64,000 bases of DNA from Spirosoma lacussanchae. Lineage in GTDB: Bacteria; Bacteroidota; Bacteroidia; Cytophagales; Spirosomataceae. The number at the start of each line of letters is the position of its first letter. Positions within the stretch are counted from its first letter, which is position 1. The notes under the pieces were generated by a model. It searched no databases and was not told the DNA's origin. It saw nothing but the letters and a program-made list of their open reading frames with translations. Shown piece after piece: positions 15,165 to 32,503 of this stretch. Where the stretch lies: the NCBI RefSeq assembly GCF_005870035.1, contig NZ_SWJG01000001.1:2405639-2469638 (forward strand). Reading direction: 5' to 3'. The position numbers and the translations under genes were made by a program.

Positions 15165-15614
15165 TTACACAGCAGGCTGGGCTAGCAGGGTCAGCGCGTG
15201 TGTACCGTCAACCAGCATCTGCATAGTCGTGGATTCATACACACTCAGATTCGCATTGCGAACCTTTAACATAATGGGTCGAATGGCGCAGGTTTCTTCA
15301 TCCTCACAGTCGTCGCAGCGGACGTAGAAATTCAATGACACACAAGGAGTGGGCGCAATAGGCCCGTCAATGATGCGCACGACTTGAGCCAGGGTAATCC
15401 GTTCGGGCTCGACCCGGAGCATGTATCCCCCTCCTTTTCCTTTCTGACTTTGCAGAATACCATGATTTCGCAACTCCAGGAGTATGGTCTCCAGAAATTT
15501 TTGCGGAATCGATTCCTTTTCCGCAATCGATGCAATCAGCACCGGTCCGTTGCCGTACGCAGCTGCCAGTGCTTTGAGGGCCTTGATGGCATATTTCGCT
15601 TTTTTCGAGATCAT
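15165..15614 (-). CDS. Rrf2-family transcriptional regulator with a cysteine cluster
   Basis: 149 aa. The N-terminal winged helix is typical (KAKYAIKALKALA, then IPQKFLETILLELRNHGILQSQKGKGGGYML). The sensor end has four cysteines, Cys91, 100, 103 and 109 (CVSLNFYVRCDDCEDEETC). This differs from the IscR three-Cys arrangement but could still bind an iron-sulfur cluster or sense thiols. Rrf2 members such as CymR and IscR control cysteine, sulfur or Fe-S metabolism. It is divergent from the TlpA/SusCD/monooxygenase run, which makes it the candidate local regulator (inference). A palindrome at 15642-15664 lies just upstream. Confidence 0.9.
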   Translation of the reverse strand: MISKKAKYAIKALKALAAAYGNGPVLIASIAEKESIPQKFLETILLELRNHGILQSQKGKGGGYMLRVEPERITLAQVVRIIDGPIAPTPCVSLNFYVRCDDCEDEETCAIRPIMLKVRNANLSVYESTTMQMLVDGTHALTLLAQPAV

Positions 15615-15641
15615 ACGTGCTTAGGTTAACGTTGCAAGCCT

Positions 15642-15664
15642 ATAGACTACCAGAACTAGTCTGT
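15642..15664. promoter_or_regulatory. Candidate operator palindrome upstream of the Rrf2 gene
   Basis: ATAGACTA-N7-TAGTCTGT: eight positions on each side with one mismatch, 28 bases before the Rrf2 start and in the region shared with the divergent operon. Size and symmetry suit a dimeric Rrf2 regulator; this is inference from position. Confidence 0.4.
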
Positions 15665-15892
15665 TTGTCCTATAAATTTTGTGCACTATTTTGAAAAATA
15701 AAAATTTTGACCGGTTTCTTTTCCTAAAAGCGAGCTTCCTCTACACTCGTTTCCGGCCCGTTCAGCTTACTCCCTGTGGCTGACCTACTTGGTACAACCT
15801 CTACTTTTTTTATGAGCAATCGTACTAGCCAATACACCTAAAACCCGATAGAGTATTACATAACCACTTGACAATCATTTTTTTAACTTTTT

Positions 15893-15924
15893 CTTGCAGA
15901 ACTAAACTTCACACCTCAATTTTG
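15893..15924 (+). promoter_or_regulatory. Possible promoter for the TlpA/SusCD run
   Basis: CTTG at 15893-15896, 20 bases, then CAATTTTG at 15917-15924, one mismatch from TAnnTTTG. A start near 15931 would give a leader of about 150 nt that includes the nested palindrome. Confidence 0.35.
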
Positions 15925-15980
15925 CTGTCAGTAGTTCGGTTCCGCCACTGCCCACTCCAGACAAGTCAGTCTACACACTG

Positions 15981-16041
15981 GCTTCTTTATTTTAAAGATC
16001 AATCTATTAAATATATAGATTAAGAATGAAAATAAAGAAGC
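15981..16041 (+). promoter_or_regulatory. 61-nt nested palindrome in the leader of the TlpA/SusCD run
   Basis: The outer arms GCTTCTTTATTTT (15981-15993) and AAAATAAAGAAGC (16029-16041) are perfectly complementary. The inner arms AATCTAT (16001-16007) and ATAGATT (16015-16021) are too. The two unpaired segments are 7 nt on each side and the loop is 7 nt, so the whole element is symmetric. It ends 40 bases before the ATG at 16082. It could be a repressor site or an RNA switch in the 5' leader. Confidence 0.6.
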
Positions 16042-16081
16042 GTCACTGATTATCAATCATTCACTTTATGCAACCAATTTT

Positions 16082-17335
16082 ATGAAAGCAACTTTAGGTG
16101 CATTGACCGGTACCCTGCTCTTGGGTACAGTTGCCTTAGCGCAAACGCCGGTTTCGTTGCCTGCCGGCCAGTACCGGGGCGAATTTCAAACCTCCTCGGG
16201 AGCCATACCGTTTAACTTCGAGGTGCAGGTCAGAGAAAATGCAGCGGTAACTGTCTACCTGCTGAACGCAAACGAGCGGGAAGAACTGACGGGCACTCAT
16301 GCCGAAGGCGATTCAATCATCATTCCCATTCCTCTCTACGATGCCAGCCTTCGTTTCAAACGCTCGGGTCAGCTGTTGACAGGTATCTACCGGGCTAGTC
16401 AGGGACGAGCCATCCCCGTAACGGCCGCGCACGGGCGTTCGGACCGATTCGATGAAGGGGCTGCCCCGACCATTAGCCTGACCGGAAAATGGGAAATTGG
16501 CATCCAGCGAAATCCAAACGACCCAAACGACGTCAATCAGACCGTGGGCGTTTTTACCCAAACCGGCAGCCGCGTAACCGGAACCATTCTGACAACGACT
16601 GGGGACTATCGGTATCTCGACGGACAGGTTACTGGCAATGAGTTCAGACTTTCGGCGTTCAGCGGATCATCGCCTTCGGTTTTTCAGGGCAACGTCCAGC
16701 CTGACGGCAGCCTGACCGGTGCGTTTCGCTACATCCGGGGCACCATCCCGGTAACGGGCAAAAAGAATGATGCGGCCAAACTACCTGATCTCTACAGCCT
16801 CACCCAGCTGAAACCAGGATATAACCAACTTGCTTTCACTTTCCCCGACCTGAACGGGAAACCGGTTTCGCTTACCGACGCAAAATACAAGGGCAAAGTT
16901 GTAGTGGTTACCATACTGGGCAGCTGGTGCCCCAACTGCATTGACGAAGCGGCTTTTCTGGCGCCCTGGTATAAAGCCAACCGGCAGCGGGGTGTCGAAA
17001 TTATCGGACTGGCCTTTGAACGGAAGAATGATCTCACGTTCGCCAGGACTGCCCTCTCCCGGCTCATCAACCGGTTTGATGTGCAATATGACATCCTGTT
17101 TGCGGGACTGGCCGACAAACAAGCGGCTTCCGACGCCCTCCCCGCTCTGAATAAAGTACTGGCCTTCCCGACAACGATTATACTGGATCGTCAGGGTAAG
17201 GTAGCGCAGATTCATACGGGGTACACGGGTCCGGCTACCGGTAGCTATTATGATGCCTACGTAGCTGAATTTAACCAGACGATCGACAAACTCTTGAAAA
17301 ACGAACCGGTCCCGGCGGCAACCGGCGGCCGCTAA
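16082..17335 (+). CDS. TlpA-like thioredoxin-domain protein, secreted
   Basis: 417 aa with a signal peptide (MKATLGALTGTLLLGTVALAQ). The first 240 residues are a beta-rich region of unknown type seen in Bacteroidota redoxins. The C-terminal part is a TlpA/ResA-like thioredoxin fold: FTFPDLNGKPVSL, then the active site WCPNC at 282-286, and a cis-Pro region AFPTTIILDRQGK. It should reduce or exchange disulfides in the periplasm. First gene of the run that continues into SusC, SusD, an ATP-grasp ligase and a monooxygenase. A hairpin lies between it and susC. Pairing with importers suggests reduction of a thiol- or disulfide-containing nutrient (inference). Confidence 0.88.
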   Translation: MKATLGALTGTLLLGTVALAQTPVSLPAGQYRGEFQTSSGAIPFNFEVQVRENAAVTVYLLNANEREELTGTHAEGDSIIIPIPLYDASLRFKRSGQLLTGIYRASQGRAIPVTAAHGRSDRFDEGAAPTISLTGKWEIGIQRNPNDPNDVNQTVGVFTQTGSRVTGTILTTTGDYRYLDGQVTGNEFRLSAFSGSSPSVFQGNVQPDGSLTGAFRYIRGTIPVTGKKNDAAKLPDLYSLTQLKPGYNQLAFTFPDLNGKPVSLTDAKYKGKVVVVTILGSWCPNCIDEAAFLAPWYKANRQRGVEIIGLAFERKNDLTFARTALSRLINRFDVQYDILFAGLADKQAASDALPALNKVLAFPTTIILDRQGKVAQIHTGYTGPATGSYYDAYVAEFNQTIDKLLKNEPVPAATGGR

Positions 17336-17340
17336 CTGAC

Positions 17341-17374
17341 GCTGACTGAATCGGCGGCAACCGATTCGATCAGC
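17341..17374 (+). other. Hairpin between the TlpA-like gene and susC
   Basis: GCTGA (17341-17345) and GAATCGG (17348-17354) pair with CCGATTC (17361-17367) and TCAGC (17370-17374), followed by TTATTA. It may partially terminate or stabilise the upstream message and so set different levels for the redoxin and the importer. Confidence 0.45.
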
Positions 17375-17424
17375 TTATTACCAGGCCCTGGCAGGCCAGT
17401 TTTCACGTAACCATAGTTTATACC

Positions 17425-20400
17425 ATGTTTAAATTTCTATCGGCGTGGGTAGTCGGCTGGCTACTCCTGACCAGTACTGTACTGGCCCAATCTGGCGGGT
17501 CCCCGCAAACCCGCCTATCTGGCACTGTTCAAACAGAAGACGGAGAACGCCTGCCCGGCGTGACCATTGCGGTTAAAGGCACCAATCAGGGTACGTCGAC
17601 GGATGCCGAGGGGCGCTTCTCACTGGCCCTTACCCAGGCAAACAGTCTCCTGATCGTCAGCGCCATTGGCTACGTCACCCAGGAAGTCAGAGCGACAGGT
17701 GAGGTCTTAACAATCCGGCTACAGAATGACATACGTCAATTGTCGGAGATCGTAGTGACGGGCTATGGCGAACAGAGCCGAAAGTCACTGACCAGTGCTA
17801 TCTCGACCGTAAAAGGTGATGATCTGAAAGACATTCCCGTTGCGAGCCCCGATCAGCTTCTGCAGGGCCGTGCCCCGGGGGTGCAGGTACAGGCCAACTC
17901 GGGCGTGCCGGGGGGTGGCATTTTTATCCGGGTACGGGGTACCAACTCGGTCAATGCCGGCAACGATCCGCTGTATGTGGTTGACGGGGTGTTCATCAAC
18001 AACACCAACCTGGTAGCCACTGGACTCGGCAACCAGGTCCCTTCTAATCCGCTGGCAGACCTGAATCCGGCCGATATCGGATCCATCGAGATTCTTAAAG
18101 ACGCTAATGCCACGTCCATTTACGGATCGCGTGGGGCCAACGGGGTTGTCCTGATCACCACCAAACGCGGCAAATCAGGTAAAACCCGGCTCACTTTCGA
18201 CACGTACCAGGGCTGGTCGAAAGCGCCGAAGCTCTTCGAAACAGTAACCGGTCAGCAACTGGCCGAACTGGAAAATGAACGCTTCATCAACGACGGCGGA
18301 AACCCGGCCAATGTCCCCTACCGCGCTGTAGCGGACGGCGGCCTGGGTCTACCGCAGCAACAGCCCACCTTTGACCGGATCAACGATCTGTTCCGGACGG
18401 CCCGCACGGCTAACTATGAACTGGCGGCCTCGGGCGGTACCGACAAAACGCAGTTTTATATTGGAGGAGGTTATTTCAGGCAGGAATCAATCGTTCGACC
18501 GACCAATTTTGAACGGTACAGCCTGCGCATCAACCTCGACAATCAGGTAAACGACCGGCTCAAGATCGGGACCAGCACAACCCTGGCCCGCACCATCCGG
18601 AATGTCAGCAGCAACGACAACAATCCGGCGGGGGTTATCAATTCAGCCCTGTTTCCCCGCTCCAACCTGCCCGTCTTTAACGCGGATGGCTCGTATGCCA
18701 AATACGGCAACTTTGATAACCACTTGGCTCTCATCAATAACCTGAACAACAACGCGGTAGGGTCGCGCATCATCAGCAATTTGTTCGGTGTCTACGACTT
18801 TTCTCCGCATCTGAGCCTGCGCAGCAGCTGGAGCATCGATTTCAACGACATGTACGAGAACAATTACAATAATACGCTGTTGCTGGCGGGGCAACCCCGC
18901 GGTACGGCTACGTCGTTTCTCTCGCGCGATGTCACCCTGTTGAATGAGCAAGTGCTGACTTACCGACAAACCTTTGCGGATCAGCATTCCGTACAGGTTC
19001 TGGTTGGCAACACCCTTCAGCAGAATACCTTTCAGCGCACCACCCTGAGCGGACAGCAGTTTCCGTCAAACGATCTGCAAACCATTGCGTCATCAGCCAC
19101 CCAAACCGGCTCATCGAGCCGCTCGAAAGCCGGGCTAGTTTCGTTCTTCGGCAAGGCCAACTACAACTTCCGGGATCGCTACTCACTCGATGCCAGCCTG
19201 CGGGCCGATGCATCGTCCCGGTTCGGAGTATCCCGGCGCTGGGGCTACTTTCCCTCCGTTGGCCTGGGCTGGCGGGTGTCGGAAGAAGATTTTCTGCGCA
19301 ATTTGAATGCCTTCGATGAACTAAAGCTCCGGGCCAGCTGGGGGCTGACCGGCAACCAGGCTGGTATTAGCGACTTCGCATCGCTGGGCCTGTGGCAGGG
19401 TGGAGCCAACTACCTCGATTTACCCGGTACGGCTCCCCTGCAACTGGCCAATCCGGACCTGAGCTGGGAAACGACCCGTCAGTGGAACATCGGGCTCGAT
19501 GCAGCCGTGCTGAAACGGCGGCTGGCTCTGGAAGTCAATTACTACGACAAATACACCTATGGGCTGCTGCTGAATGTTCCCGTACCCCGCAAGCTTGGCT
19601 ACTCCTCGGTGATTCAGAACTTCGGCGCCGTCAGTAACAAAGGCATTGAGTTTCAGGTAACCGCCAACTGGATTAACCGGCGAGACCTGAGCTGGAGTAG
19701 TTCGTTTAACCTGGCCCGGAACATCAACCGCATCGAAAAGCTAGCGGCTCCCATCACTACCGGCTCGCGGGATATTTTCCGGCTCGAAGAAGGCGCTTCC
19801 TTATACTCGTTCTGGCTATATCGGCAAACGAGGGTCAATCCTGAAACCGGTAATGCCGAGTACCAGGACGTCAACAACGACGGGGCCATCACCGTGGCTG
19901 ACCGGCAGCTGGTTGGCAATGCCTGGCCAAACTTTTTCGGCGGCTTCTCCAATACCCTTGCCTACAAAGGGTTCGACCTGGGCCTCAACCTATACGTTGA
20001 ACAGGGGGCCAAAATCATGAATATGAACCGGTTCTTTCTGGTCCACGGCGGCACGCAGCGAAACATTGGCTACTACCCGGATCAGCTCAACCGCTGGCAG
20101 CAGCGGGGCGACCAGACCTCTATTCCGAGGCTCACCACCGATCCCAACAACAACAATTACGGGGGCGTTGTGCAGAACCTGAGCGACCGCTACCTCGAAG
20201 ACGGCTCGTTCATCCGGCTACGTACACTGTCGCTGGGATATCGGCTACCGGCTCCGCTCTTGACCCGGCTCCGGCTGGCTTCCGTACGGGCTTATATACA
20301 GGCCACCAACCTCTTTACCATTACCCCCTACTCGGGCCTCGACCCTGAGGTAAACTCGCAAAGCAACGTAGCCAATACCAAAAACTTCGACTGGGCCACC

Positions 20401-20448
20401 GTACCCCAGCCCCGTACCATTCAGGCCGGGCTAACCATTGGTCTGTAG
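17425..20448 (+). CDS. SusC/RagA-family TonB-linked outer membrane protein
   Basis: 1007 aa. A signal peptide (about 1-21) is followed by a carboxypeptidase-regulatory-like beta domain (LSGTVQTEDGERLPGVTIAVKGT...STDAEGRFSL). Next come a plug domain (GYGEQSRKSLTSAIS, LLQGRAPGVQV, RGTNSVNAGNDPLYVVDGV) and a large beta barrel ending in an aromatic-rich C-terminus. It imports a ligand in partnership with SusD using TonB energy. No glycoside hydrolase or sugar gene is nearby, so the substrate is unlikely to be a glycan. The neighbours point to a peptide or organosulfur compound (inference). Length is typical and the frame is intact. Confidence 0.95.
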   Translation: MFKFLSAWVVGWLLLTSTVLAQSGGSPQTRLSGTVQTEDGERLPGVTIAVKGTNQGTSTDAEGRFSLALTQANSLLIVSAIGYVTQEVRATGEVLTIRLQNDIRQLSEIVVTGYGEQSRKSLTSAISTVKGDDLKDIPVASPDQLLQGRAPGVQVQANSGVPGGGIFIRVRGTNSVNAGNDPLYVVDGVFINNTNLVATGLGNQVPSNPLADLNPADIGSIEILKDANATSIYGSRGANGVVLITTKRGKSGKTRLTFDTYQGWSKAPKLFETVTGQQLAELENERFINDGGNPANVPYRAVADGGLGLPQQQPTFDRINDLFRTARTANYELAASGGTDKTQFYIGGGYFRQESIVRPTNFERYSLRINLDNQVNDRLKIGTSTTLARTIRNVSSNDNNPAGVINSALFPRSNLPVFNADGSYAKYGNFDNHLALINNLNNNAVGSRIISNLFGVYDFSPHLSLRSSWSIDFNDMYENNYNNTLLLAGQPRGTATSFLSRDVTLLNEQVLTYRQTFADQHSVQVLVGNTLQQNTFQRTTLSGQQFPSNDLQTIASSATQTGSSSRSKAGLVSFFGKANYNFRDRYSLDASLRADASSRFGVSRRWGYFPSVGLGWRVSEEDFLRNLNAFDELKLRASWGLTGNQAGISDFASLGLWQGGANYLDLPGTAPLQLANPDLSWETTRQWNIGLDAAVLKRRLALEVNYYDKYTYGLLLNVPVPRKLGYSSVIQNFGAVSNKGIEFQVTANWINRRDLSWSSSFNLARNINRIEKLAAPITTGSRDIFRLEEGASLYSFWLYRQTRVNPETGNAEYQDVNNDGAITVADRQLVGNAWPNFFGGFSNTLAYKGFDLGLNLYVEQGAKIMNMNRFFLVHGGTQRNIGYYPDQLNRWQQRGDQTSIPRLTTDPNNNNYGGVVQNLSDRYLEDGSFIRLRTLSLGYRLPAPLLTRLRLASVRAYIQATNLFTITPYSGLDPEVNSQSNVANTKNFDWATVPQPRTIQAGLTIGL

Positions 20449-20468: not shown

Positions 20469-21797
20469 ATGAAGTACATTCACGCTTTTTTTATCCTGTT
20501 TCTGCTGGCTTCCTGCGATACGCTCGATGTTCAGCCTTTTCAGCAGCTTCCCGATAGCCGGGCTATCAACGATGCAGGCAGCGCACGGGCGGCTCTGCTC
20601 GGCACCTACAGTAGTGTCCAGAACTATTACCAGCTAAACTTTCCGGTGCTGGGCTATTTGCCCGGCGACAATGTTCGCTTCAACGGGACGCTGAACCAGT
20701 TTAACCAGATCGATCAGAACGCCCTGAGCGCCGACAATGTGATCATCACCGAAACCTGGACCCAGATTTATCAGGCGATCAATTCGGCTAACAACGTGAT
20801 TGCGGCTCTGCCCGGCCTGACCGATCCACTGCTGACAGCCACCGAAAAAAACCAGCTGCTGGGGGAGGCTTATTTTGTCCGGGCCCTGGGGTATTTCGAC
20901 CTTGGCCGTGGCTGGGGTGGCGTACCGCTCGTGTTGAAACCGACCCGCTCCGCAGCCGATGGACAGGGCATCAAACGCAGCACACTGGCACAAACCTATG
21001 ACCAGGTTCTTGCCGATTTGATCGAAGCCGAACGTTTACTGCCCGACGGCACAACGAGAAACCGGGCGGTGAAAAATACAGCCCGGGCGCTGCGGGCCCG
21101 GCTGCACCTGTACCGGGGGCAGTGGACCGAGGCTGAGAATTACGCGACCCAGGTACTGGCCAGCGCAGCCTATCGGCTGGTTACTCCCTACCGGGCCTTC
21201 TCGGCAGCCCCCTTCGGCAGTACAGAGTCAGTGCTGGAGCTCACCTACAGCATTGCCGACCAGAACAGCCAGTGGAACAACTGGTTCCCGAGTGCATTGG
21301 GCGGTCAGTATACCCTTCAGCCGACGCCTGAGTTTACGACACTGGTTAACCGCGCCGATGTTGGTGGAAACCGTAATTCCCTACTGGCTACCGTGCGGGT
21401 TGGAACAACAGATTTTGTGTATGGAAACCTGTATAACCGGGCTGCCCAGCGCGACGATCCGGCCTACATTATCCGAGTGGCTGAATTGTATCTGATCCGG
21501 GCCGAGGCCCGTGCCCGCCAGGACAAGCTCACCGATGGGCTAGCCGATCTGAACGCCATCCGAAGCCGGGCGGGCCTCTCGGCCGTAACCGTAACAAGCC
21601 AGTCGAACCTGCTCCTGGCCATCGAGAACGAACGGCGGATTGAGTTTGCCTTCGAAGCCCACCGCTGGTTCGACCTGGTCCGCACCGGGCGGGCGGGTGA
21701 GGTGCTCGGCCTGACGGATCAACGCAAATGGGTATTCCCCATTCCGTTCAACGACATTGCCGCCGACCCCGACCTGATACAGAACCCCGGCTATTAG
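20469..21797 (+). CDS. SusD/RagB-family nutrient-binding lipoprotein
   Basis: 442 aa. The lipoprotein signal MKYIHAFFILFLLASC carries a lipobox Cys at 16, so it is anchored on the outer membrane surface. SusD features include the TPR-like helices with GEAYFVRALGYFDLGRGWGGVPLV, and the C-terminal ELYLIRAEARAR...DLNAIRSRAGL and ENERRIEFAFEAHRWFDLVRTG. It starts 20 bases after susC and acts as the lid of the SusC barrel. Somewhat short for the family (usually 480-600), as in RagB-type peptide-associated members. Confidence 0.95.
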   Translation: MKYIHAFFILFLLASCDTLDVQPFQQLPDSRAINDAGSARAALLGTYSSVQNYYQLNFPVLGYLPGDNVRFNGTLNQFNQIDQNALSADNVIITETWTQIYQAINSANNVIAALPGLTDPLLTATEKNQLLGEAYFVRALGYFDLGRGWGGVPLVLKPTRSAADGQGIKRSTLAQTYDQVLADLIEAERLLPDGTTRNRAVKNTARALRARLHLYRGQWTEAENYATQVLASAAYRLVTPYRAFSAAPFGSTESVLELTYSIADQNSQWNNWFPSALGGQYTLQPTPEFTTLVNRADVGGNRNSLLATVRVGTTDFVYGNLYNRAAQRDDPAYIIRVAELYLIRAEARARQDKLTDGLADLNAIRSRAGLSAVTVTSQSNLLLAIENERRIEFAFEAHRWFDLVRTGRAGEVLGLTDQRKWVFPIPFNDIAADPDLIQNPGY

Positions 21798-22908: not shown

Positions 22909-23940
22909 ATGAAATTTGGCTACTGGCTACCCGTTTTTGGCGGGTGGCTTCGCAACATCGACGACGAGCAGATGCGCCCCGACTGGACCTATGTCAAAAA
23001 CCTGGCCCAGCGGTCAGAAGACTGGGGCTACGACCTGACGCTGATTGCCGAACTGAACCTGAATGACATAAAAGGCGAAGAGGCCCCTTCGCTCGATGCC
23101 TGGTCGACGGCTGCTGCGCTGGCGGCCGTTACGAACCGCATCGAACTGATGGTCGCGGTTCGGCCAACTTTTCACCAGCCCGCCCTGCTGGCCAAACAAG
23201 CCGCCAATATCGACCACATCAGCGGAGGCCGGCTAACCCTCAACGTCGTATCCTCGTGGTGGCAGGACGAAGCGCGTAAATACGGGGTTCATTTTGAACA
23301 GCACGACGACCGCTATGCGCGCACTGCCGAATGGCTGCACGTGGTCGACAACCTCTGGAAACAGGATCATTTTTCGTTTACCGGCAATTACTACCGGGTA
23401 GAGGACTCGATCCTGCAACCCAAACCGATCTCCTCGCCCCGGCCGTTCATCTACGCTGGCGGTGAGTCCGAAGCGGCCAAAAACATGATTGCCAGCCTCT
23501 GCGACGGGTATGTGATGCACGGCGACGAGCCAGCCGCTATCGGCCGCCGGATCAACGACCTCCGCGAACGGCGCGCGCGGCTACGACCCGAGCTGCCGCC
23601 CATGAAGTTCGGCGTGGCGGGCTACTCGATTGTTCGTAATACCGAAGCCGAGGTGAAGCGCGAGATCGACCGCATCACCAATGTACAGCACTCATCGGCT
23701 GGCTACAAAAACTACCAGCAGTGGCTGGCCGGCACCCAGCTGGAAAAGCAGCCTTCGCTGGCCGACTATTCGGTATCGAATCGGGGCCTGCGGTCGGGCC
23801 TGACCGGCGTGCCAGACCAGGTTGCCGAGCAGGTAGCGGCCTTCGAAGCCGTTGGGGTCGACTTTCTGCTACTGCAGTGCAGTCCGCAACTAGAAGAGAT
23901 GGAACGGTTCTCCGAAGCCGTCATTCGCGTCATCGCCTGA
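22909..23940 (+). CDS. LLM-class flavin monooxygenase, SfnG-like
   Basis: 343 aa, a bacterial-luciferase-like TIM barrel using FMNH2 and O2. Segments such as LAAVTNRIELMVAVRP, LLAKQAANIDHISGGRLTLNVVSSWW, FSFTGNYYRVEDSILQPKPI and IYAGGESEAAKNM match dimethylsulfone monooxygenase SfnG more closely than SsuD (from memory of the families). It therefore probably cleaves a C-S bond of a sulfone or sulfonate. It begins 10 bases after the ATP-grasp gene. A flavin reductase is not in the window. It is followed by a hairpin at 23948. Confidence 0.9.
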   Translation: MKFGYWLPVFGGWLRNIDDEQMRPDWTYVKNLAQRSEDWGYDLTLIAELNLNDIKGEEAPSLDAWSTAAALAAVTNRIELMVAVRPTFHQPALLAKQAANIDHISGGRLTLNVVSSWWQDEARKYGVHFEQHDDRYARTAEWLHVVDNLWKQDHFSFTGNYYRVEDSILQPKPISSPRPFIYAGGESEAAKNMIASLCDGYVMHGDEPAAIGRRINDLRERRARLRPELPPMKFGVAGYSIVRNTEAEVKREIDRITNVQHSSAGYKNYQQWLAGTQLEKQPSLADYSVSNRGLRSGLTGVPDQVAEQVAAFEAVGVDFLLLQCSPQLEEMERFSEAVIRVIA

Positions 23941-24007: not shown

Positions 24008-26659
24008 ATGCGCAAACCGTACCTACTGGCCATGGCCTTACTGGGCTCACTGTCGGTCACCCAACCGACCATCGCCCAGAGCAGCTATTACTTCGCCGAT
24101 CACAAAGCCGCCTTCGACCCGGCCATTCCGACCCCCGAGCAGTTTCTGGGCTACCCTATCGGCTCCCATTTTACCCGCTACGACCGCATTGTCGATTACC
24201 TCAAGGAACTGGATCGACTCTCGGACAAAGTCAGCCTGCAGTCTATCGGCAAAACCTACGAAGAGCGGCCGCAGGTGATTGCCTTTTTCACCTCGGCCTC
24301 CAACCAGAAAAATCTGGAATCGATCCGGCAGCAGCACCTGCAACTGGCCGATCCCAAAGCCAGCACTCCCAGCTATGCCGCGCTGCCGGTTGTTGTTCAC
24401 CTGGCCTATACCGTACACGGCAACGAAAGCTCGAGCAGCGAAGCCGCTCTGCTGACGGCCTATTACCTGACGGCCTCGACTAGCCCCGACGTAGCCCGCT
24501 GGCTCAGCGAAGCCGTCGTTACCCTCGACCCTGCCGAAAACCCCGATGGCCGCGACCGGGCCACGCAATGGTTCAACCAGCACAAATCGTTTCCGCCGGT
24601 GACCGACCCCCTCGACCGCGAGCACAATGAAGGCTGGCCCAACGGTCGGTTCAACCATTACCTCAACGACCTCAACCGCGACTGGCTGCCGCTGGCCCAC
24701 ATAGAGAGCCGCAACCGGATGACGTTCCACCAGGACTGGCTCCCGAACGTGATGATCGATTTTCACGAAATGGGTACCAGCAGTACGTATTACTTCGAAC
24801 CTTCGAAACCCTTCAGTACGGAAAACGACTTGATCCCCCGGGCCACCTACGACGTGCTGAACGTGCGACTGGCCCGATATTTTGCGCGGGCTCTCGACGG
24901 CATCGGTTCACTCTACTGGACCAAAGAGCAGTTTGACAACCTGTCGCCCATTTATGGATCGACCTATCCCGATTTTACGGGGGGCGTGGGGGTTACCTTC
25001 GAAGTGGGCAGTTCGCGAGGGCTGGCGCAGGAAGGCAGCAACGGGGTCGTCACATTTCCGTTCACGATCCGCAATCACCTGCGTACGGGACTGGCTGCGG
25101 TACAGGGCGCCGTTGAGGAGAAAGAACTATATCTGCGGCATCAGCGCGACTTTTTTGCGTCTGCCCTGACCGATGCGCAGAAGTTCCCTACCAAATCCTA
25201 TGTTTTCGGGGCTGCCGCCGACCCGAACCTGACTAACCGCTTCGCCGATCTGCTTCTGCGGCATAACATCCGCTTTTACGACCTGAAACAGACAACAACG
25301 GCGGGCGGCAGAACCTTCGAGCCCGGCCGCGCCTATGTGGTGCCTACCGCTCAGCCGAACTACCGGCTGGTCCACTCCATTTTTGAGGAGGTAACGACAT
25401 TCCACGACAGTGTTTTTTACGACGTTACGGGCTGGTCACTGATTCATGGCTATGGACTCCCCTACGCCAAGCTCAAAGACGCGGCCCTGGCAACCGGCGA
25501 ACCGATCAAGACGCTCAAACCCGTGCAGGGGGGGCTGGCAGGCGGCCCGTCACCCTACGCGTATCTGCTGAACTGGTCAGACTACCATTCGTCGAAGGCG
25601 CTGACGGCGCTGCAACAGGCCGGTGTACTGACCAAAGTAGCGCTGAAGTCCTTCAGTATTAACCCACCGAGCCGTCCGGGCGGTTCGGGCGCTCAGTCGC
25701 TTCCCCGGGAGTCGATGCAGACCGATTTCCAGGCGGGCTCGATCGTCATTCCAGTAGCCGGTCAGAAGCTTACGGCCGACTCACTCGTCAGCCTGCTGAG
25801 CAGCGTTGGCCAGCGGACGGGCGTCACCTTTACCGGGGTTTCGACTGGTTTCAACGCCAAAGGTATTGACCTGGGCAGCAACAACATCCGGGCACTGCGC
25901 AAGCCGGAGGTAGCGCTGCTGGCCGGACCCGGCGTGAACCCGTCCGAAGCTGGCGAAGTCTGGTTTTTGCTCAGTGATCAGCTGAATCTGCCGGTCAGCA
26001 AGCTCGATCCCGGCAACCTGAACCGGGTCGACTGGAACCGGTACAACACGGTGGTGCTGGTAGGTGGTCAATACAACAGCCTCGACAAATCGCTGGTGAG
26101 CAAGCTGAAAAGCTGGGTAGAGAACGGCGGAACCCTGATCACGACCAAAACCGCTTCTGAGTGGGCGGTCAGGCAGGGGCTCACCCGCGAAAACCTGCTG
26201 GCATCGGCCCGGCCCGATACGACCCGTTCAACCGAACGAGCTGATTTTGGCCGCGTAGCCGAACGGGAAGGCACTAAAGCCGTTGCCGGATCTATCTACA
26301 CGGCCGACCTCGACATCACCCATCCTATTGGTTTCGGGCTGTCGGACCGGAAGATCTTTGTGTTCCGCAACGGGACCACCCTACTCAAATCAGGCAGCAG
26401 TCCGTACAACACCGTGGCTAAATACAGCCCGAATTCGCTCGTAAGTGGCTATGTCTCCAAAGACAACCTGAAAAAGATCAACAACTCGGCGGCCATCGTG
26501 GTGAGTCCGGAGGGACAGGGTCGGGTAGTACTTTTTGCCGATAACCCGGCGTTCCGCTCTTACTGGCACGGTACGTCGCGTTTGTTTCTGAACGCCGTAC
26601 TCTTTGGCCCACTGGTGAACACACCCGTTGGCCTGCCCATCAGCGAAGAAGAGAACTGA
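24008..26659 (+). CDS. Secreted M14-family zinc carboxypeptidase
   Basis: 883 aa with a signal peptide (MRKPYLLAMALLGSLSVTQPTIAQ). Zinc ligands are His137 and Glu140 in VHGNESS and His253 in DFHEMG; the catalytic base is Glu332 in VTFEVGSSRG. A class-I glutamine-amidotransferase-like region follows at the C-terminus (VVLVGGQYNSLDKSLVSKLKSWVENGGTLIT), as in many large Bacteroidota M14 proteins. It should trim C-terminal residues from peptides in the periplasm. The longer frame from 23969 is rejected because it masks the signal. Its place right after the monooxygenase suggests that the nutrient may arrive in peptide-linked form (inference). Confidence 0.9.
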   Translation: MRKPYLLAMALLGSLSVTQPTIAQSSYYFADHKAAFDPAIPTPEQFLGYPIGSHFTRYDRIVDYLKELDRLSDKVSLQSIGKTYEERPQVIAFFTSASNQKNLESIRQQHLQLADPKASTPSYAALPVVVHLAYTVHGNESSSSEAALLTAYYLTASTSPDVARWLSEAVVTLDPAENPDGRDRATQWFNQHKSFPPVTDPLDREHNEGWPNGRFNHYLNDLNRDWLPLAHIESRNRMTFHQDWLPNVMIDFHEMGTSSTYYFEPSKPFSTENDLIPRATYDVLNVRLARYFARALDGIGSLYWTKEQFDNLSPIYGSTYPDFTGGVGVTFEVGSSRGLAQEGSNGVVTFPFTIRNHLRTGLAAVQGAVEEKELYLRHQRDFFASALTDAQKFPTKSYVFGAAADPNLTNRFADLLLRHNIRFYDLKQTTTAGGRTFEPGRAYVVPTAQPNYRLVHSIFEEVTTFHDSVFYDVTGWSLIHGYGLPYAKLKDAALATGEPIKTLKPVQGGLAGGPSPYAYLLNWSDYHSSKALTALQQAGVLTKVALKSFSINPPSRPGGSGAQSLPRESMQTDFQAGSIVIPVAGQKLTADSLVSLLSSVGQRTGVTFTGVSTGFNAKGIDLGSNNIRALRKPEVALLAGPGVNPSEAGEVWFLLSDQLNLPVSKLDPGNLNRVDWNRYNTVVLVGGQYNSLDKSLVSKLKSWVENGGTLITTKTASEWAVRQGLTRENLLASARPDTTRSTERADFGRVAEREGTKAVAGSIYTADLDITHPIGFGLSDRKIFVFRNGTTLLKSGSSPYNTVAKYSPNSLVSGYVSKDNLKKINNSAAIVVSPEGQGRVVLFADNPAFRSYWHGTSRLFLNAVLFGPLVNTPVGLPISEEEN

Positions 26660-26869: not shown

Positions 26870-28312
26870 ATGCGTATAAAATCGCTTGCCCTGCTTCGGC
26901 AGGAAGCCGCCGAAAGCGGAGAGCAGACCCTCAAACGCTCGCTGGGCGCGTTCAATCTCGTTGCTATCGGCATCGGTGTCATCATCGGCGCCGGCCTGTT
27001 TTCTCTGACGGGTATCGCTGCGGCCAATCATGCCGGCCCGGCCGTTACCCTTTCCTTTGTTGTTGCCGCTGTAGGCTGTGCCTTCAGTGCGCTCTGTTAT
27101 GCCGAATTTGCGGCCATGGTACCCGTGGCCGGCAGTGCCTATACCTACGCCTACGCCACCCTGGGCGAGCTGTTTGCCTGGATTATCGGCTGGGATCTGG
27201 TTCTCGAATATTCGGTCGGAGCCGCTACGGTGGCCATTAGCTGGTCGCAGTACCTGAACCGGTTTCTCGGCACCTTCGGGTTACATCTGCCTCCTCAGCT
27301 GATGCTTTCGCCGTTCGAAACCGCTACCGGAGCCGATGGGTCGGTAGTATCGGGCCTGGTCAACCTGCCCGCCGTGCTGATCGTGGTGGTGATCACCAGC
27401 ATTATCGTGCGCGGCACCTCGGGGTCGGCCCTGTTCAACGCCATCGTGGTCGTACTGAAGGTGCTGGTGGTCCTGGTCTTCATTGCCATTGGCTGGAACT
27501 ACATCGACCCCGCCAACTATCAGCCCTACATACCCGCCAACACCGGAACGTTCGGCGAGTACGGCTGGAGTGGAGTACTACGCGGAGCGGGTGTCGTTTT
27601 CTTTGTCTTTATTGGCTTCGACATTGTAGCGACCATGGCGCAGGAAGCCCGTAACCCGCAGCGCGACATGCCCATCGGTATCATTGGTTCGCTGGTTGTC
27701 TGTACCATTCTGTTCGTGGTTTTTGGCTATGTCATGACGGGGATGGCCAACTATACCGAGTTTAAAGACAGCGCGGCCCCCGTGGCCATCGCCATCGACA
27801 AAACCCCTTACCCCTGGCTGGGCCAGCTGATTATCGGCGCTATTCTGATCGGATACACCTCGGTCATTCTGGTCGACCTGCTGGGGCAGTCGCGGGTGTT
27901 TTTCTCGATGAGCCGCGACGGCCTGCTGCCCAGCGCCTTTTCTCAGGTTCATCCCCGATTCCGTACGCCCTGGAAATCGAACGTGCTGCTCTGTGTATTC
28001 ATCGGCCTGTTTGCCGGCTTTGTGCCCATTCGGGTAGTGGGTGAAATGACCAGTATCGGTACCCTGCTGGCGTTTGTCATGGTATGCCTGGGCGTCCTGA
28101 TCCTGCGCAAAAAACAACCCGATGCACCCCGCGCCTTCCGCACGCCCTGGGTGCCGGTGGTACCCATACTCGGCATCATTACCTGCGCCGTCATGATGTT
28201 TTCGCTTCCCGGCGATACCTGGCTTCGGCTGATTATCTGGCTGGCCATCGGGCTGGTTATCTACTACACTTATGGCCGTAAACGCAGCAAACTGACGGCA
28301 ACAGCACCCTGA
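26870..28312 (+). CDS. APC-superfamily amino acid permease
   Basis: 480 aa with about 12 membrane segments. The hallmark GIGVIIGAGLFSLTG sits in the first helix, and the pattern up to LCYAEFAAMVPVAGSAYTYAYATLGELFAWIIGWDL is that of cationic-amino-acid/YfnA-like transporters. It moves an amino acid or small amine across the inner membrane. It follows the M14 peptidase and precedes the M28 peptidase, consistent with uptake of released amino acids or amino-sulfonates. The ATG at 26870 gives a normal soluble N-tail of about 30 residues. Confidence 0.92.
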   Translation: MRIKSLALLRQEAAESGEQTLKRSLGAFNLVAIGIGVIIGAGLFSLTGIAAANHAGPAVTLSFVVAAVGCAFSALCYAEFAAMVPVAGSAYTYAYATLGELFAWIIGWDLVLEYSVGAATVAISWSQYLNRFLGTFGLHLPPQLMLSPFETATGADGSVVSGLVNLPAVLIVVVITSIIVRGTSGSALFNAIVVVLKVLVVLVFIAIGWNYIDPANYQPYIPANTGTFGEYGWSGVLRGAGVVFFVFIGFDIVATMAQEARNPQRDMPIGIIGSLVVCTILFVVFGYVMTGMANYTEFKDSAAPVAIAIDKTPYPWLGQLIIGAILIGYTSVILVDLLGQSRVFFSMSRDGLLPSAFSQVHPRFRTPWKSNVLLCVFIGLFAGFVPIRVVGEMTSIGTLLAFVMVCLGVLILRKKQPDAPRAFRTPWVPVVPILGIITCAVMMFSLPGDTWLRLIIWLAIGLVIYYTYGRKRSKLTATAP

Positions 28313-28381: not shown

Positions 28382-30049
28382 ATGAAAGGACATCGCATTG
28401 CCCTTGCCCTCAGTGTCCAGCTGGGGCTTTTTCAGCTGGCTCCGGCCCAGACTACTCCGCTCACCATTCCTAATGAAGCCCAGCAGGCAGCCCGTCAGGT
28501 TCGACCTGAGGCCATCGAAGCGCACATGCGCTACCTGTCCGACGACAAACTGGCGGGTCGCCGACCAGGCACGCCCGGCTTCGAACTGGCGGCTCAGTAT
28601 GTCGAAAGCCAGTTTAAAACGCTGGGTTTTAAACCCGCCGGCCAGCGCGGCACGTTCCGACAGGCCGTTCCCCTCCGTAAAGCACAGGTTCGGGAAGAAG
28701 CCAGCACGATGGCCCTGATTCAGAACGGCCGCGACCAACAGCTTACCTACGGCAAAAACTTTATTCTAAGCCTCAACTTCGGGCAGGCCACCAGCGAGGT
28801 ATCCGCACCAGTCGTTTTTGTCGGCTTCGGAGTATCGGCTCCGGAGCTGGGTTATGACGATTACGCCGGTATCGACGTGCGGGGTAAGATCGTAGCCTGT
28901 TTCAACGGCGCCCCGGCCACCTTTCCATCTAACCAGCGGGCCTATACGGGTTCGGCCAAGCAGGAGATAGCTGCTGCCCGGGGCGCCGTTGGCCTGATAA
29001 CTTTTAGTTTGCCCACCGATGTGCGGGCGCGGATCGAGTCCAACGCGCCCCGCAACCGACAGGCTATCTACCGCTGGACCGACCCTAAGGGGCAGACCCA
29101 GCGCACTTTTCCGCAACTGCGGGTCATCGCGTCGTTGGGCGACTCAACGGCTCGTTCGCTGTTCGCCAATAGTACCAAAAGCTTCGAAGAAGCCCGGCTC
29201 GCGGCCAACAAAAGTCAGCCACAGGCTTTTCCGCTCAACCTATCCGTACGCGCCCGTACCCAGACGGACCTCAACGACGGCCTGATCGGCGAAAACATCG
29301 TAGGTATGCTCCCGGGCAGCGATCCGAAGCTCCGGAACGAGTATGTCGTTTACGTCTCCCACCTCGACCACCTGGGCGTGGGCCGGGTCGTGAAAGGCGA
29401 TTCGATCAATAACGGCGCACACGATAATGCATCGGGCGTTTCGATCAACCTGGAAGCAGCCCGGCTGTTTGCATCCCTGCCGAAAAAACCCCGCCGGTCA
29501 ATCGTGTTCGTGGCCGTAACCGGCGAAGAGATGGGCCTGCTCGGCTCCGACTATTTTGCCAGCAACCCCACCATCCCCAAAGCCAGTATTGTGGCGAATC
29601 TCTGCCTCGACATGCCGTTTTTCTTCCATCCGCTGCTCGACATCGTTCCTTATGGTTCTGAGCATTCGAGTATGAAAGGAGCCGTGGACGCAGCGGCCCA
29701 GTTTGTCGGGGTAAAAATCGCCAAAGACCCGATTCCCGAACAGGCAGTCTTCATGCGATCGGATCATTTCAGCTTTGTCCGACAGGGTATACCGGCCATC
29801 TACATCAAGAGCGGGTCCACCACCGGCGACGACCGCGACGGGACGAAGCTGAACCTCGACTGGCGCGCTACGGTCTACCACACCCCGCAGGATGACATGA
29901 ACCAGCCCTTCGACTGGAACGCGGCCGCCCGGCATGTTCAGCTCCAGTTCCTGATCGGCTACCTGACCGCCCAGTCCGACAGCCGGCCCGTCTGGAACGA
30001 AGGCGACTTTTTCGGCACCAAGTTTGGCACCAACGCGGCTGTCCGGTGA
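28382..30049 (+). CDS. Secreted M28-family aminopeptidase
   Basis: 555 aa with a signal peptide (MKGHRIALALSVQLGLFQLAPAQ). A protease-associated domain is inserted near residues 130-260. The binuclear zinc site is visible: His327 in SHLDHLG, Asp348 in AHDNASG, Glu382-Glu383 in TGEEMG, the Asp of CLDMPF and the His of SDHFSF. It removes N-terminal residues from peptides in the periplasm. Its stop overlaps the GTG start of the next permease (GTGA), so the two are translationally coupled. A small hairpin (28341-28361) lies in its leader. Confidence 0.92.
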   Translation: MKGHRIALALSVQLGLFQLAPAQTTPLTIPNEAQQAARQVRPEAIEAHMRYLSDDKLAGRRPGTPGFELAAQYVESQFKTLGFKPAGQRGTFRQAVPLRKAQVREEASTMALIQNGRDQQLTYGKNFILSLNFGQATSEVSAPVVFVGFGVSAPELGYDDYAGIDVRGKIVACFNGAPATFPSNQRAYTGSAKQEIAAARGAVGLITFSLPTDVRARIESNAPRNRQAIYRWTDPKGQTQRTFPQLRVIASLGDSTARSLFANSTKSFEEARLAANKSQPQAFPLNLSVRARTQTDLNDGLIGENIVGMLPGSDPKLRNEYVVYVSHLDHLGVGRVVKGDSINNGAHDNASGVSINLEAARLFASLPKKPRRSIVFVAVTGEEMGLLGSDYFASNPTIPKASIVANLCLDMPFFFHPLLDIVPYGSEHSSMKGAVDAAAQFVGVKIAKDPIPEQAVFMRSDHFSFVRQGIPAIYIKSGSTTGDDRDGTKLNLDWRATVYHTPQDDMNQPFDWNAAARHVQLQFLIGYLTAQSDSRPVWNEGDFFGTKFGTNAAVR

Positions 30050-31332
30050 GTCGTTCAGGAGCCAGCCAATCCGGCTTGCTGCGGGGCATCAGTCGGTTCG
30101 ACTTCATTGCGCTGATCATCAACATTACCATAGGCGCGGGGATTTTGGGCCTGCCAGCCCGGCTGTATGCCCTGGTGGGCACCTGGAGCCTGCTGGCCTA
30201 TGGCGTCAGTGCGGCCGTGGTTACTCTGATTATCCTTTGTTTTGCCGAGGTCAGTAGCCGATTCAGCGGTACGGGAGGGCCCTATCTGTACAGCCGGATT
30301 GCCTTCGGGCCCCTGGTCGGCTTCGAGGTGGGCTGGCTGTTCTGGCTGTCGCGGGTGGCCAGCTTCGCGTCGATCTGCAATCTGTTTGTGAGTTATGCTG
30401 CGCTGTTCCGTCCCGAGCTGGCCGAAGGCTGGGAGCGCACCGGGCTAATGACGGCCCTGGTTGCCGGGCTGGCAACGCTGAACTACATCGGCGTACAGCG
30501 ATCCGCCCGGGTCAACACCATCTTTACGGTCAGCAAGCTGGTCGTGATCGGTACCTTTGCAGTGGTTGGCTTGTTTTTCATCGATCCGGCGGCTTTCCGG
30601 TTTGCCGGTGTTCCTGACTATGCCCCTTTCTCGCAGGCGGTTCTGCTACTGATTTTCACCTTCTCCGGCTTCGATGTAGCGGCTATCCCGTCGGGCGAGG
30701 TTCAGCAGCCCCAGCGAACCGTTCCGGTGGCGCTGCTGGTGTCGATCGGTACCGTGGCGGTGTTGTTCATGGCCGTACAGGTTGTCTGCATCGGCACCTT
30801 GCCGAATCTGGCGCAGTCGGAGCGCCCCCTGTCCGACGCTGCGGGGCAGTTTGTGGGACCGGCCGGGGCGCTGTTCATCACCATAGTTGCCTTATTGACG
30901 GCGCTTGGCACACTCCACGCCCTCATGCTGACCGGGCCGAGGCTATTATTTGCGATGGCCGAGCAACAGCAGCTACCCGGCTGGCTCGCCCGCACCCACT
31001 CCCGCTTTCGAACCCCTTACGTGGCTATTCTCATCACAGCCATTAGTCAGCTTCTGCTGGCCGTTACCGGTACCTTTCTGTACGCGCTTACTCTCAGTAC
31101 ACTTATACGGCTTTCCTATTTTGCGCTGACCTGTGCGGCCCTCCCCGTTCTTCGTGGGCGTCAGGATGTGCCTTTGGCCCAGTTCCGGGTAGTGGGAGGC
31201 TGGTTGGTTTCGGGCGTGGCGGTCCTGTTGTGTGGCTGGCTGCTCAGTAACAGCTCGGGCCGGGAAGCCCGTGATGTAGCCATTGCCGGGGCGGTTGGCC
31301 TACTCATCTACTGGCGGATGCGATCGGCCTAA
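30046..31332 (+). CDS. APC-superfamily permease
   Basis: 428 aa with about 12 membrane segments. The first helix carries LIINITIGAGILGLPARL, and the profile resembles APC members of the YjeH/AdiC kind. The GTG start at 30046 overlaps the M28 stop by 4 bases, which gives tight coupling: the peptidase would release what this carrier takes up. No ATG gives a sensible N-terminus. It differs clearly from the permease at 26870, so the locus has two distinct amino-acid-type carriers. Confidence 0.9.
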   Translation: MSRSGASQSGLLRGISRFDFIALIINITIGAGILGLPARLYALVGTWSLLAYGVSAAVVTLIILCFAEVSSRFSGTGGPYLYSRIAFGPLVGFEVGWLFWLSRVASFASICNLFVSYAALFRPELAEGWERTGLMTALVAGLATLNYIGVQRSARVNTIFTVSKLVVIGTFAVVGLFFIDPAAFRFAGVPDYAPFSQAVLLLIFTFSGFDVAAIPSGEVQQPQRTVPVALLVSIGTVAVLFMAVQVVCIGTLPNLAQSERPLSDAAGQFVGPAGALFITIVALLTALGTLHALMLTGPRLLFAMAEQQQLPGWLARTHSRFRTPYVAILITAISQLLLAVTGTFLYALTLSTLIRLSYFALTCAALPVLRGRQDVPLAQFRVVGGWLVSGVAVLLCGWLLSNSSGREARDVAIAGAVGLLIYWRMRSA

Positions 31333-31348
31333 TATTTCTGTAAATCTT

Positions 31349-32503
31349 ATGCTTGACCAACCCATCGTTCCTATACCGATCCGTACGGCTGACCGCATCT
31401 GCGAAGTAGCCTGGTTCTCTGACCTATGCGGAGAAGATACTGAATTCCTGAGCGTTCGCGACCCGGCCCGGGCCACCTTCGCCCATTGTCGTGATATTGC
31501 GCTGGCGGCCGAACGCCTGGGCTTCAGCAATCTCCTGCTCCCGACTTCCTACATGCCTGGTCAGGAGGTTGTTCCCTTTGCCGCGGGGGTAGCACCTGAT
31601 CTGCAGCGGATCAACCTCCTGACGGCCATTCGATGCGGAGAGATGCACCCGCCCATGCTGGCTCGTACGCTCGCGTCGCTCGATCACATGCTGAACGGGC
31701 GACTCACGATTAACATCATAAACTCCGACCTGCCCGGTTATCAGGAAGATGCCGAACTGCGCTACCAGCGCTGCGCCGAGACCATACAAATCCTCCGGCA
31801 GGCCTGGACCGCCGACCGCATCGAGCACGACGGGCCCGTCTATGGTAAACTTTCCCTCTCTACCGATCCAATCAGGCCACACCAGCAGAATGGTGGCCCC
31901 CTGCTCTATTTCGGAGGCACCTCCGACGGCGCCCGGGAAGTCTGTGCCCAATACTGCGATGTGTTTCTGATGTGGCCCGAAAAAGAAGAAAGCCTGTATG
32001 CCAATATGCAGGACGTTTCGCAACGCGCGGCCCGCTACGGGCGGCAGGTCGATTTCGGGCTGAGGGTTCACGTTATTGTGCGGGAAACCGAAGCCGAAGC
32101 AAGGGCCTGGTCGCGGCATATTATGTCAAAGTTTGACCCGGTGCGGGGGGCTGCGATGAAGAACGCGTCCCAAAGTTCCTGGTCGCTGGGCGTACGTCGG
32201 CAGAATGAGCTACGTACCGAAGCCGATGCCGAGGGGTTTGTAGAACCCCTGTTGTGGACCGATATCGGTAAAGCCCGGTCGGGGGCGGGTGGAGCACTGG
32301 TCGGTAGTGCGGAGCAGATTATCGACAAACTGAACCGATACATGGACATGGGCATGCGGGCCTTCATCCTGTCTGGCTACCCCCTACTCGACGAGGCCGA
32401 CTATGTAGCCCGGCTCGTGCTTCCCTATCTGCCCAACGCAACCCTTTCGCGTTTGCAGGGACGCCTACCCGAACCCAGGGAAGCCCCTCCGGGAGGCCAG
32501 TAA
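31349..32503 (+). CDS. LLM-class flavin monooxygenase, SsuD-like
   Basis: 384 aa from the ATG at 31349, 17 bases after the permease. The family is FMNH2-dependent alkanesulfonate monooxygenase, which releases sulfite from sulfonates. Shared blocks with SsuD include LTAIRCGEMHPPMLARTLAS, LYFGGTSDGA, FGLRVHVIVRETEAEA (the Arg/His pair) and the mobile-loop Arg in KARSGAGGALVG. The active-site Cys segment of E. coli SsuD (PTGRSCED) is PTSYMPGQ here, so that Cys is absent, which suggests a different substrate. The longer frame from 31283 overlaps the permease and is not used. Confidence 0.9.
   Translation: MLDQPIVPIPIRTADRICEVAWFSDLCGEDTEFLSVRDPARATFAHCRDIALAAERLGFSNLLLPTSYMPGQEVVPFAAGVAPDLQRINLLTAIRCGEMHPPMLARTLASLDHMLNGRLTINIINSDLPGYQEDAELRYQRCAETIQILRQAWTADRIEHDGPVYGKLSLSTDPIRPHQQNGGPLLYFGGTSDGAREVCAQYCDVFLMWPEKEESLYANMQDVSQRAARYGRQVDFGLRVHVIVRETEAEARAWSRHIMSKFDPVRGAAMKNASQSSWSLGVRRQNELRTEADAEGFVEPLLWTDIGKARSGAGGALVGSAEQIIDKLNRYMDMGMRAFILSGYPLLDEADYVARLVLPYLPNATLSRLQGRLPEPREAPPGGQ

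Follow-up and report, generated by a model that had tools for sequence, protein, structure and literature searches.

Organization of the gene run

The DNA analyzed here (64,000 nt, referred to as the window, from the 6.33 Mb assembly of Spirosoma lacussanchae) carries ten genes on the + strand between 16082 and 32503, preceded by a divergent Rrf2 gene on the - strand (Table 1). Two features of this run are central to the present work: an ATP-grasp ligase gene (ATPg) followed by a flavin-dependent monooxygenase gene (LLM1), and a palindrome upstream of the first gene. A sequence-only reading of the same DNA had described a co-directional run facing an Rrf2 regulator, with short gaps or overlaps in most pairs, and had proposed that it scavenges organic sulfur linked to peptides or amino acids. 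The coordinates and families of all eleven genes agreed with that description; the gaps, in order along the run, are 89, 20, 96, 10, 28-70, 210, 69, -4 and 16 bp. The reported absence of glycoside hydrolases was also confirmed, since no such enzyme or other carbohydrate enzyme was found by Pfam in ten of the proteins or by NCBIfam in the eleventh, the amino-acid permease APC1. The closest named relative of the window genome met in this analysis was Spirosoma sordidisoli.

Inspection of the translations by eye revealed signal-peptide-like stretches at the start of the TlpA-like protein (which has the motif WCPNC), M14 and M28, a lipobox-like SusD N-terminus, and no export signal in ATPg, LLM1 or the second monooxygenase, LLM2. 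SusC/SusD and the peptidases are therefore expected at the envelope, and ATPg, LLM1 and LLM2 in the cytosol. ATG 31349 is most likely the start of LLM2.

Table 1. Genes and other features of the run, in window positions
Feature	Position	Strand	Basis or remark
Rrf2-family regulator, CymR-like, under the CymR cut-off	15165..15614	-	NCBIfam, Pfam
Palindromic operator AATCTATTAAATATATAGATT (predicted)	16001..16021	none	60 bp 5' of the TlpA-like gene
TlpA/ResA-like exported thioredoxin, N-terminally extended	16082..17335	+	Family searches
SusC/RagA TonB-linked outer-membrane transporter	17425..20448	+	Family searches, PDB relatives
SusD/RagB lipoprotein	20469..21797	+	Family searches, PDB relatives
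ATPg, ATP-grasp ligase of RimK/LysX/ArgX fold, gene 1 of the conserved pair; invariant C216, C221, C232	21894..22898	+	
LLM1, SfnG-like FMNH2 monooxygenase, gene 2 of the pair; without the MsuD sulfonate site	22909..23940	+	
M14 zinc carboxypeptidase, probably exported; longest open reading frame from GTG 23969	24011..26659	+	Pfam
APC amino-acid permease 1 (APC1)	26870..28312	+	NCBIfam
M28 aminopeptidase, probably exported	28382..30049	+	Pfam
APC amino-acid permease 2 (APC2)	30046..31332	+	NCBIfam, Pfam
LLM2, MsuD-like alkanesulfonate/methanesulfonate monooxygenase; W, R, R, A sulfonate-binding residues kept	31349..32503	+	
Terminator-like stem, ahead of opposite-strand dnaK	32565..32578	+	

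A predicted operator shared with sulfur assimilation genes

The strongest clue to the role of the run is the palindrome at 16001-16021, which was absent from the sequence-only reading. It is the sole exact copy of AATCTAT-N7-ATAGATT in the genome; when up to two mismatches were allowed, 21 sites were found in the window genome, compared with 8 for the reversed pattern. One of the 21, an operator-like palindrome (L128, 12318-12338), lies about 10 bp 5' of the tauE-metZ-oxidoreductase-cysH-cysD-cysN operon of the same genome.

CysD is present in 16 of the 18 other genomes carrying ATPg, which together with the window genome gives 17 cys loci. With the window palindrome alone, a site with at most three mismatches was found just 5' of tauE in six of the 17 (L128, L130, L131, L132, L133 and L135). 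A matrix free of cys information was then built from 15 sites in promoters of the pair, SusC and TlpA, for which the window palindrome had been the sole query; one training site, L107, heads a run that opens with two unassigned genes before SusC. This matrix gave a score of at least 13 at tauE, the first gene of the cys operon, in nine of the 17 genomes, seven of these sites being located about 10 bp upstream and two (L134, L136) no more than 40 codons into a tauE open reading frame that was called too long. Sites scoring 11.2-15.1 were found 10-17 bp 5' of sulfite reductase in L133, L134, L136 and L137 (the gene was Pfam-tested in three and assigned by length and position in L136), and sites scoring 11.6-14.9 lie 62-193 bp 5' of the gene at the sulfite reductase position in L139, L141, L142 and L143 (Pfam-tested in L141). 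L138 has a site 94 bp 5' of cysH, and L145 one 24 bp 5' of the adenosine 5'-phosphosulfate kinase gene. At a score of at least 9, the matrix found 42 sites in the 17 loci, compared with 10-26 in 20 column-permuted controls. An earlier matrix of 29 sites was partly selected with a cys-derived matrix and hence circular; our conclusions rest on the 15-site matrix.

The reverse test used a matrix of six cys-promoter sites, themselves found with the window palindrome, and compared ATPg operons with other operon starts of the same loci. In Bacteroidota other than Hymenobacter and Solirubrum, a split chosen after the absence of the motif from these genera had been noticed, and with L017 excluded as a near-copy, the 33 ATPg operons scored above 202 others (p = 3.9e-7). 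An earlier version, in which operons of the partner families were omitted from the comparison, gave p = 3.6e-8 for 34 against 179, with 6 of the 34 beyond the 95th percentile. In the first matrix test, which covered all 58 Bacteroidota ATPg operons, p was 8e-4 and 13 of the 58 lay beyond the 95th percentile of 405 others. A half-site permutation test on 57 upstream regions of all phyla ranked the pattern first of 140 at three mismatches, but with 8 regions against 7 for the next best, and gave a tie at two mismatches. The operator predicted here is thus shown by sequence statistics to be shared with sulfate assimilation and sulfite reductase genes, and the link of the run to a sulfur regulon is well supported.

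The wider regulon and the Rrf2 protein

The pattern WGTCTAYNNANNTNRTAGACW was searched in 60 evenly drawn Chitinophagaceae-type genomes, the family of pair carrier G397, and gave 65 rows in 22 genomes, compared with 3 rows for the control; palindromic sites are counted on both strands in these rows, and part of the sites were examined as loci. Five of the 25 loci examined belong to cysD, cysH (two, one as second gene), tauE and sulfite reductase, and eight contain a SusC-like gene with 22-47% identity to the window SusC. The remaining loci carry PhyH, DUF2490, fatty acid hydroxylase, or genes with no family assigned. In 13 pair-bearing genomes, GTCTAYNNANNTNRTAGAC gave 27 rows in seven genomes, with 2 rows for the control; ATPg, SusC, M14/TlpA, a relative of APC1 and an FGE-sulfatase are among the loci examined, and further ones code for a molybdopterin oxidoreductase with cytochrome c and for a pyridine nucleotide-disulfide reductase, while some have no apparent connection to sulfur.

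A relative of the Rrf2 protein (E 1e-10) is present in 21 of the 22 Chitinophagaceae-type genomes with sites and in 21 of the 38 without (one-sided Fisher p = 7e-4, a value that ignores genome size and completeness). In G656, less than 2 kb separates the Rrf2 gene from the cysD operator. The window protein scores above the Rrf2 superfamily cut-off (104.4 vs 73.3 bits) and below that of the CymR model NF047409 (80.4 vs 195 bits), and its C91, C100, C103 and C109 are conserved in all four homologues aligned. Judging from neighbourhood and families, the Rrf2 protein probably binds the palindrome.

Some other genes recur beside the operator. PhyH-family dioxygenase genes lie repeatedly 3' of it (L182, L194, L153) and may code for new organosulfur dioxygenases. 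A three-gene unit (proteins of 144-158 and 177-193 amino acids and one SDR-like by eye) adjoins the operator in three genomes (L150, L151, and L033 at 3250-5095); where tested, its first two proteins had no Pfam match. A DUF1684 protein is found next to the operator in L158 (Pfam match), and the product of L033 11067-12005 looks alike by eye.

Conservation of the ATPg-LLM1 pair

A scan with LLM1 gave 570 confirmed loci, of which the best 80 were used; this set, to which all counts of 80 refer, is therefore biased to close relatives. By record title, 59 loci are from Bacteroidota, 12 from Planctomycetota, 7 from Acidobacteriota, 1 from Armatimonadota and 1 is unclassified; the Acidobacteriota and Armatimonadota records are all metagenome-assembled genomes, and isolates occur among the Planctomycetota. 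ATPg was detected by tblastn in 76 of the 80 loci, on the same strand as and upstream of LLM1 in all 76, and less than 400 bp away in 73. The four loci without it (L046, L081, L087 and L091) are all from Planctomycetota, and the L087 sequence begins just 850 bp ahead of LLM1. ATPg and LLM1 distances are correlated (r = 0.70, 63 loci), a value reached by none of 999 permutations, and 135 of the 342 LLM1 positions are invariant across 63 loci. A distant Bacteroidota genome (L104) still has the pair, with 32%/49% identity.

Two Deinococcus plasmids (L116, L117) carry a relative of LLM1 (54% identity) behind an ATP-grasp only remotely related to ATPg (E 0.011 by blastp in one case, and a probability of 89.7 with E 1.8e-6 by hhalign in the other). 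In D. deserti these two genes follow others annotated as D-cysteine desulfhydrase and amino acid racemase, and a cysteine synthase gene lies about 3 kb further on. The presence of a different ATP-grasp type beside LLM1 relatives suggests that ligation chemistry matters to LLM1.

The complete eleven-gene run was found in the window genome and one other species, S. sordidisoli (L017 and L106, which are one genome; 95-100% identity), and was rejected as a conserved unit. The sequence-only reading, which knew of no described system with this full set, had called for a gene-neighbourhood survey: the pair is conserved beyond chance, but the complete run is not, and the rarely assembled set is centred on a more widespread enzyme pair. 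Neither the pair nor the operator was found described in the open-access literature, searched mostly at title and abstract level and, where result lists were long, in part. ATPg is not common: the window's family yielded 10 carriers among 150 genomes and the phylum 6 among 247, the window genome counting in each case, and among 201 genomes from the family of G396 there were 8 carriers, three of them known before. S. validum shares M28, APC2 and LLM2 with the window, and H. rigui shares APC2-LLM2. LLM2 occurs in three of the 80 loci (L017, L018 and L032).

Neighbours of the pair

By clusters, SusC and M14 each recur in 16 of the 80 loci, SusD in 15 and APC1 in 8, a few members being fragments. 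SusC-SusD-M14 forms a common unit near the pair and is frequently divergent from ATPg-LLM1. L058 has an ATPg-LLM1-metN-metI-metQ-Rrf2 operon, in which metN, metI and metQ exceed their curated cut-offs. An arylsulfatase gene lies directly upstream of ATPg in L088, and another follows Rrf2 near the pair in L033. The recurrence of SusC, M14, SusD and APC1, with metNIQ in one locus, is indirect evidence for the proposal that the sulfur compound is joined to a peptide or amino acid, and the peptide link has moderate support; the arylsulfatases are a link to sulfur.

The same neighbours could mean plain peptide nutrition under sulfur shortage, in which SusC/SusD and the peptidases would yield cysteine and methionine from ordinary protein, and the monooxygenases and ATPg would be separate sulfonate or sulfone tools of the same regulon. 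SusC-SusD-M14 can indeed carry its own copy of the operator, apart from ATPg-LLM1. However, ATPg is linked to LLM1 (76 of 80) and not to the peptidases (M14 in 16), which argues that it is not an independent tool, and we think this explanation improbable.

Still less probable, in our view, is a biosynthetic pair that would make a small metabolite, sulfur-sparing or protective, when the cell is starved of sulfur, with its neighbours as passengers of the regulon. Such a role would suit a pair that is frequently alone and spread across phyla, the three invariant cysteines of ATPg, and the peptides and tags known to be made by RimK-fold ligases. Against it, the recurrent adjacent transporters and the arylsulfatases are better suited to uptake and breakdown, and SfnG, SsuD and MsuD, the characterized relatives of LLM1, are catabolic.

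A glutamate dehydrogenase-like gene shares the operator region with SusC or lies upstream of the pair (L163 and L047, from one genome, and L033 5450-6778). It could be a source of glutamate for ligation.

ATPg, LLM1 and LLM2

ArgX and LysX catalyse the attachment of an amino acid, by its amino group, to a glutamate of a carrier. The predicted model of ATPg (mean predicted local distance difference test score, pLDDT, 85.9) matched ArgX (Z 28.3, root mean square deviation 2.2 A over 275 residues), LysX (Z 27.4, 2.6 A over 274) and RimK (Z 26.0) in fold, and the sequence scored 35.6 bits against a cut-off of 275.6 in the LysX model TIGR02144. C216, C221 and C232 (CPAxxC...C), located in or near the low-confidence model stretch 211-240, do not vary among 33 ATP-grasp sequences, the identity of which falls as low as 31%. 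ATPg, which had been given no role in the sequence-only reading, is probably central to the run.

The best solved match of LLM2 is the methanesulfonate sulfonatase 7olf (E 6.4e-129), and at the MsuD positions W195, R225, R296 and A/S299 it has W, R, R and A. In MsuD, alanine variants at W195, R225 and R296 gave no measurable sulfite (PMC8234197). LLM2 scored 231.5 bits against the SsuD equivalog TIGR03565 (cut-off 518.2). LLM1 has H, A, N and L at the same four positions, and although SfnG is its best-scoring NCBIfam family, its score in TIGR04021 (239.5 bits) was 143 below the cut-off of 382.95. By these tests the LLM1 substrate is not a simple sulfonate, and SfnG function was rejected for it by the cut-off and a sulfonate substrate by the residues.

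These relationships also bring to mind the salvage of oxidized methionine from damaged protein, in which LLM1, acting like SfnG, would take methanesulfinate off (ligated) methionine sulfone and LLM2 would convert methanesulfonate to sulfite. Both best matches would fit, SfnG and MsuD being the first and last enzymes of the dimethylsulfone-to-sulfite route, and a methionine-like cargo would suit the peptidases, the amino-acid permeases and metNIQ. Yet no MsuC-like oxidase for methanesulfinate was identified among the genes of the run, LLM2 accompanies the pair in few loci and is found without LLM1 nearby in S. oryzicola, and nothing of the kind turned up at listing level in the literature on methionine sulfone. 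We regard this explanation as unlikely.

Among solved chains, SusC is matched best by a 'SusC homolog' that has not been described, with RagA ranking lower, so that the solved relatives do not point to a SusC/SusD substrate. For M14, no solved structure was matched by sequence at E 0.001, and M28 has an M20 match below threshold. A second LLM2-like gene of the window genome (L004, about 1384-2553; 67% identity to LLM2) sits behind a gene that is glycoside hydrolase-like by eye.

Proposed role of the run

The reading that we favour, with a roughly even chance of being correct, is that the run belongs to the sulfur regulon and is an operon for organosulfur scavenging, working by import, trimming, ligation, C-S cleavage and sulfite release. 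The palindrome, probably bound by the divergent Rrf2 protein, would subject the run to the control that also governs sulfate assimilation and sulfite reductase. Sulfur shortage would derepress the operon, the co-regulated genes most likely being turned on together. SusC/SusD would import sulfur-containing peptides, which exported M14 and M28 would trim, and the amino acid would enter the cytosol through the APC permeases (metNIQ in one relative). There ATPg may link an S-substituted or S-oxidized amino acid into an amide at the expense of ATP, like the amino-group blocking by LysX/ArgX, and LLM1 would break the C-S bond of the ligated substrate with reduced flavin mononucleotide (FMNH2) and O2. 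LLM2 would take sulfonate or sulfinate products and free sulfite, and the route would be completed by sulfite reductase and by the cys operon, which share the operator. We infer Rrf2 binding, the direction of regulation, the steps from uptake to sulfite and their order, the substrate and the ligation partner from families, residues and neighbourhood.

The sulfur scavenging put forward in the sequence-only reading thus has good regulatory support, from the palindrome common to sulfate-assimilation and sulfite-reductase promoters of related genomes, and LLM2 adds its MsuD site; LLM1 as a sulfonate enzyme and the full set as a conserved unit are not supported.

Several observations weigh against organosulfur scavenging by this operon. 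In the reverse test only 5 of the 33 ATPg operons lay beyond the 95th percentile of the other operon starts, and the signal was missing in Hymenobacter/Solirubrum (24 vs 192, p = 0.94) and outside Bacteroidota (14 vs 137, p = 0.25); only some Bacteroidota would therefore use the operator, and in other carriers the pair must be under a different control. The 15-site matrix found no site at the cys genes of L140, and none at all in L144, the one Hymenobacter genome tested. When nine of the 20 other sites in the window genome were examined (L119-L127), the cys operon was the sole sulfur operon recognizable by eye, and in related genomes the operator also precedes genes without an evident role in sulfur metabolism (PhyH, DUF2490, fatty acid hydroxylase and glutamate dehydrogenase). 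The pair frequently stands without transporters or peptidases, indicating that peptide import is dispensable for its basic role, and metI and metQ occur in L058 and in none of the other 79 loci. An S. oryzicola plasmid carries ATPg-APC1-APC2-LLM2 with no LLM1 in the 25-kb stretch examined. Within the run, neither a deacylase counterpart nor a flavin reductase was identified, no search having been aimed at the latter.

Comparison with known systems

The salvage of S-modified cysteine in Bacillus subtilis (scm/yxe, CmoO/CmoJ), which acetylates, oxygenates and deacetylates its substrate, is the nearest functional parallel; it has an amino-acid ATP-binding cassette importer and is controlled by CymR. 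As we propose for the run, an amine-blocking enzyme is followed by a flavin mononucleotide-dependent, C-S-cleaving monooxygenase for sulfur supply. In that organism the amino group is blocked ahead of flavin-dependent C-S cleavage (PMC10863075, PMC12757645), and the monooxygenase ScmK is inactive on unacetylated substrate (PMC12757645). The run would differ in that an ATP-grasp fills the blocking place of the acetyltransferase: no acetyltransferase or dedicated M20-type deacetylase is present among the eleven genes. YxeK and CmoJ belong near the NtaA/DmoA family, whereas LLM1 scores higher with SfnG/SsuD, and the run adds SusC/SusD and peptidases to uptake.

With the Pseudomonas sfnG-msuC-msuD route for dimethylsulfone the run has in common an SfnG-like and an MsuD-like enzyme and a role in sulfur assimilation. 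Unlike that route, it has the ATP-grasp and peptidases in addition, LLM1 is under the SfnG cut-off, and no MsuC, SfnR or flavin reductase (the last without an aimed search) was identified in it. ATPg resembles the LysX/ArgX/RimK ligases in fold over almost its whole chain (Z 24.7-28.3), and amide ligation is expected from this model, but its identity to them in structural alignments is 16-23%, it is under the LysX and RimK cut-offs, it has the extra CPAxxC...C motif, and no LysW carrier gene was identified in the run. In SusCD polysaccharide loci and RagAB-type peptide importers a SusC/SusD pair is likewise combined with hydrolases, and RagA is among the PDB relatives of SusC; in contrast to polysaccharide utilization loci, peptidases replace glycoside hydrolases here, and the operator is common to sulfur genes.

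A broader proposal, which we make tentatively and with somewhat less than even confidence, is that ATPg-LLM1 constitutes an undescribed two-enzyme organosulfur salvage, in which an amide-ligating ATP-grasp would replace the acetyltransferase and prime flavin-dependent C-S cleavage. It would occur in at least four phyla and, in part of the Bacteroidota, belong to an Rrf2 sulfur regulon whose operator is WGTCTAYNNANNTNRTAGACW or a close variant of it. If so, ATP-grasp ligation would join the known ways of blocking an amino group before C-S cleavage. Most soil sulfur is organic, and to our knowledge few routes to it are known in Bacteroidota, Planctomycetota or Acidobacteriota. With its sulfur-regulon operator, the conserved pair of ligase and monooxygenase offers a concrete enzyme system for assay, and the operator predicts more sulfur genes across the Bacteroidota, several without known function among them.

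Other features of the window

Terminator-like stems such as the one that follows LLM2 are not rare by chance (29, compared with a mean of 18.4 in shuffles). Outside the run, the - strand of the window carries a transfer-messenger RNA gene at 5833-6204, with the tag GEYNYAMAA.

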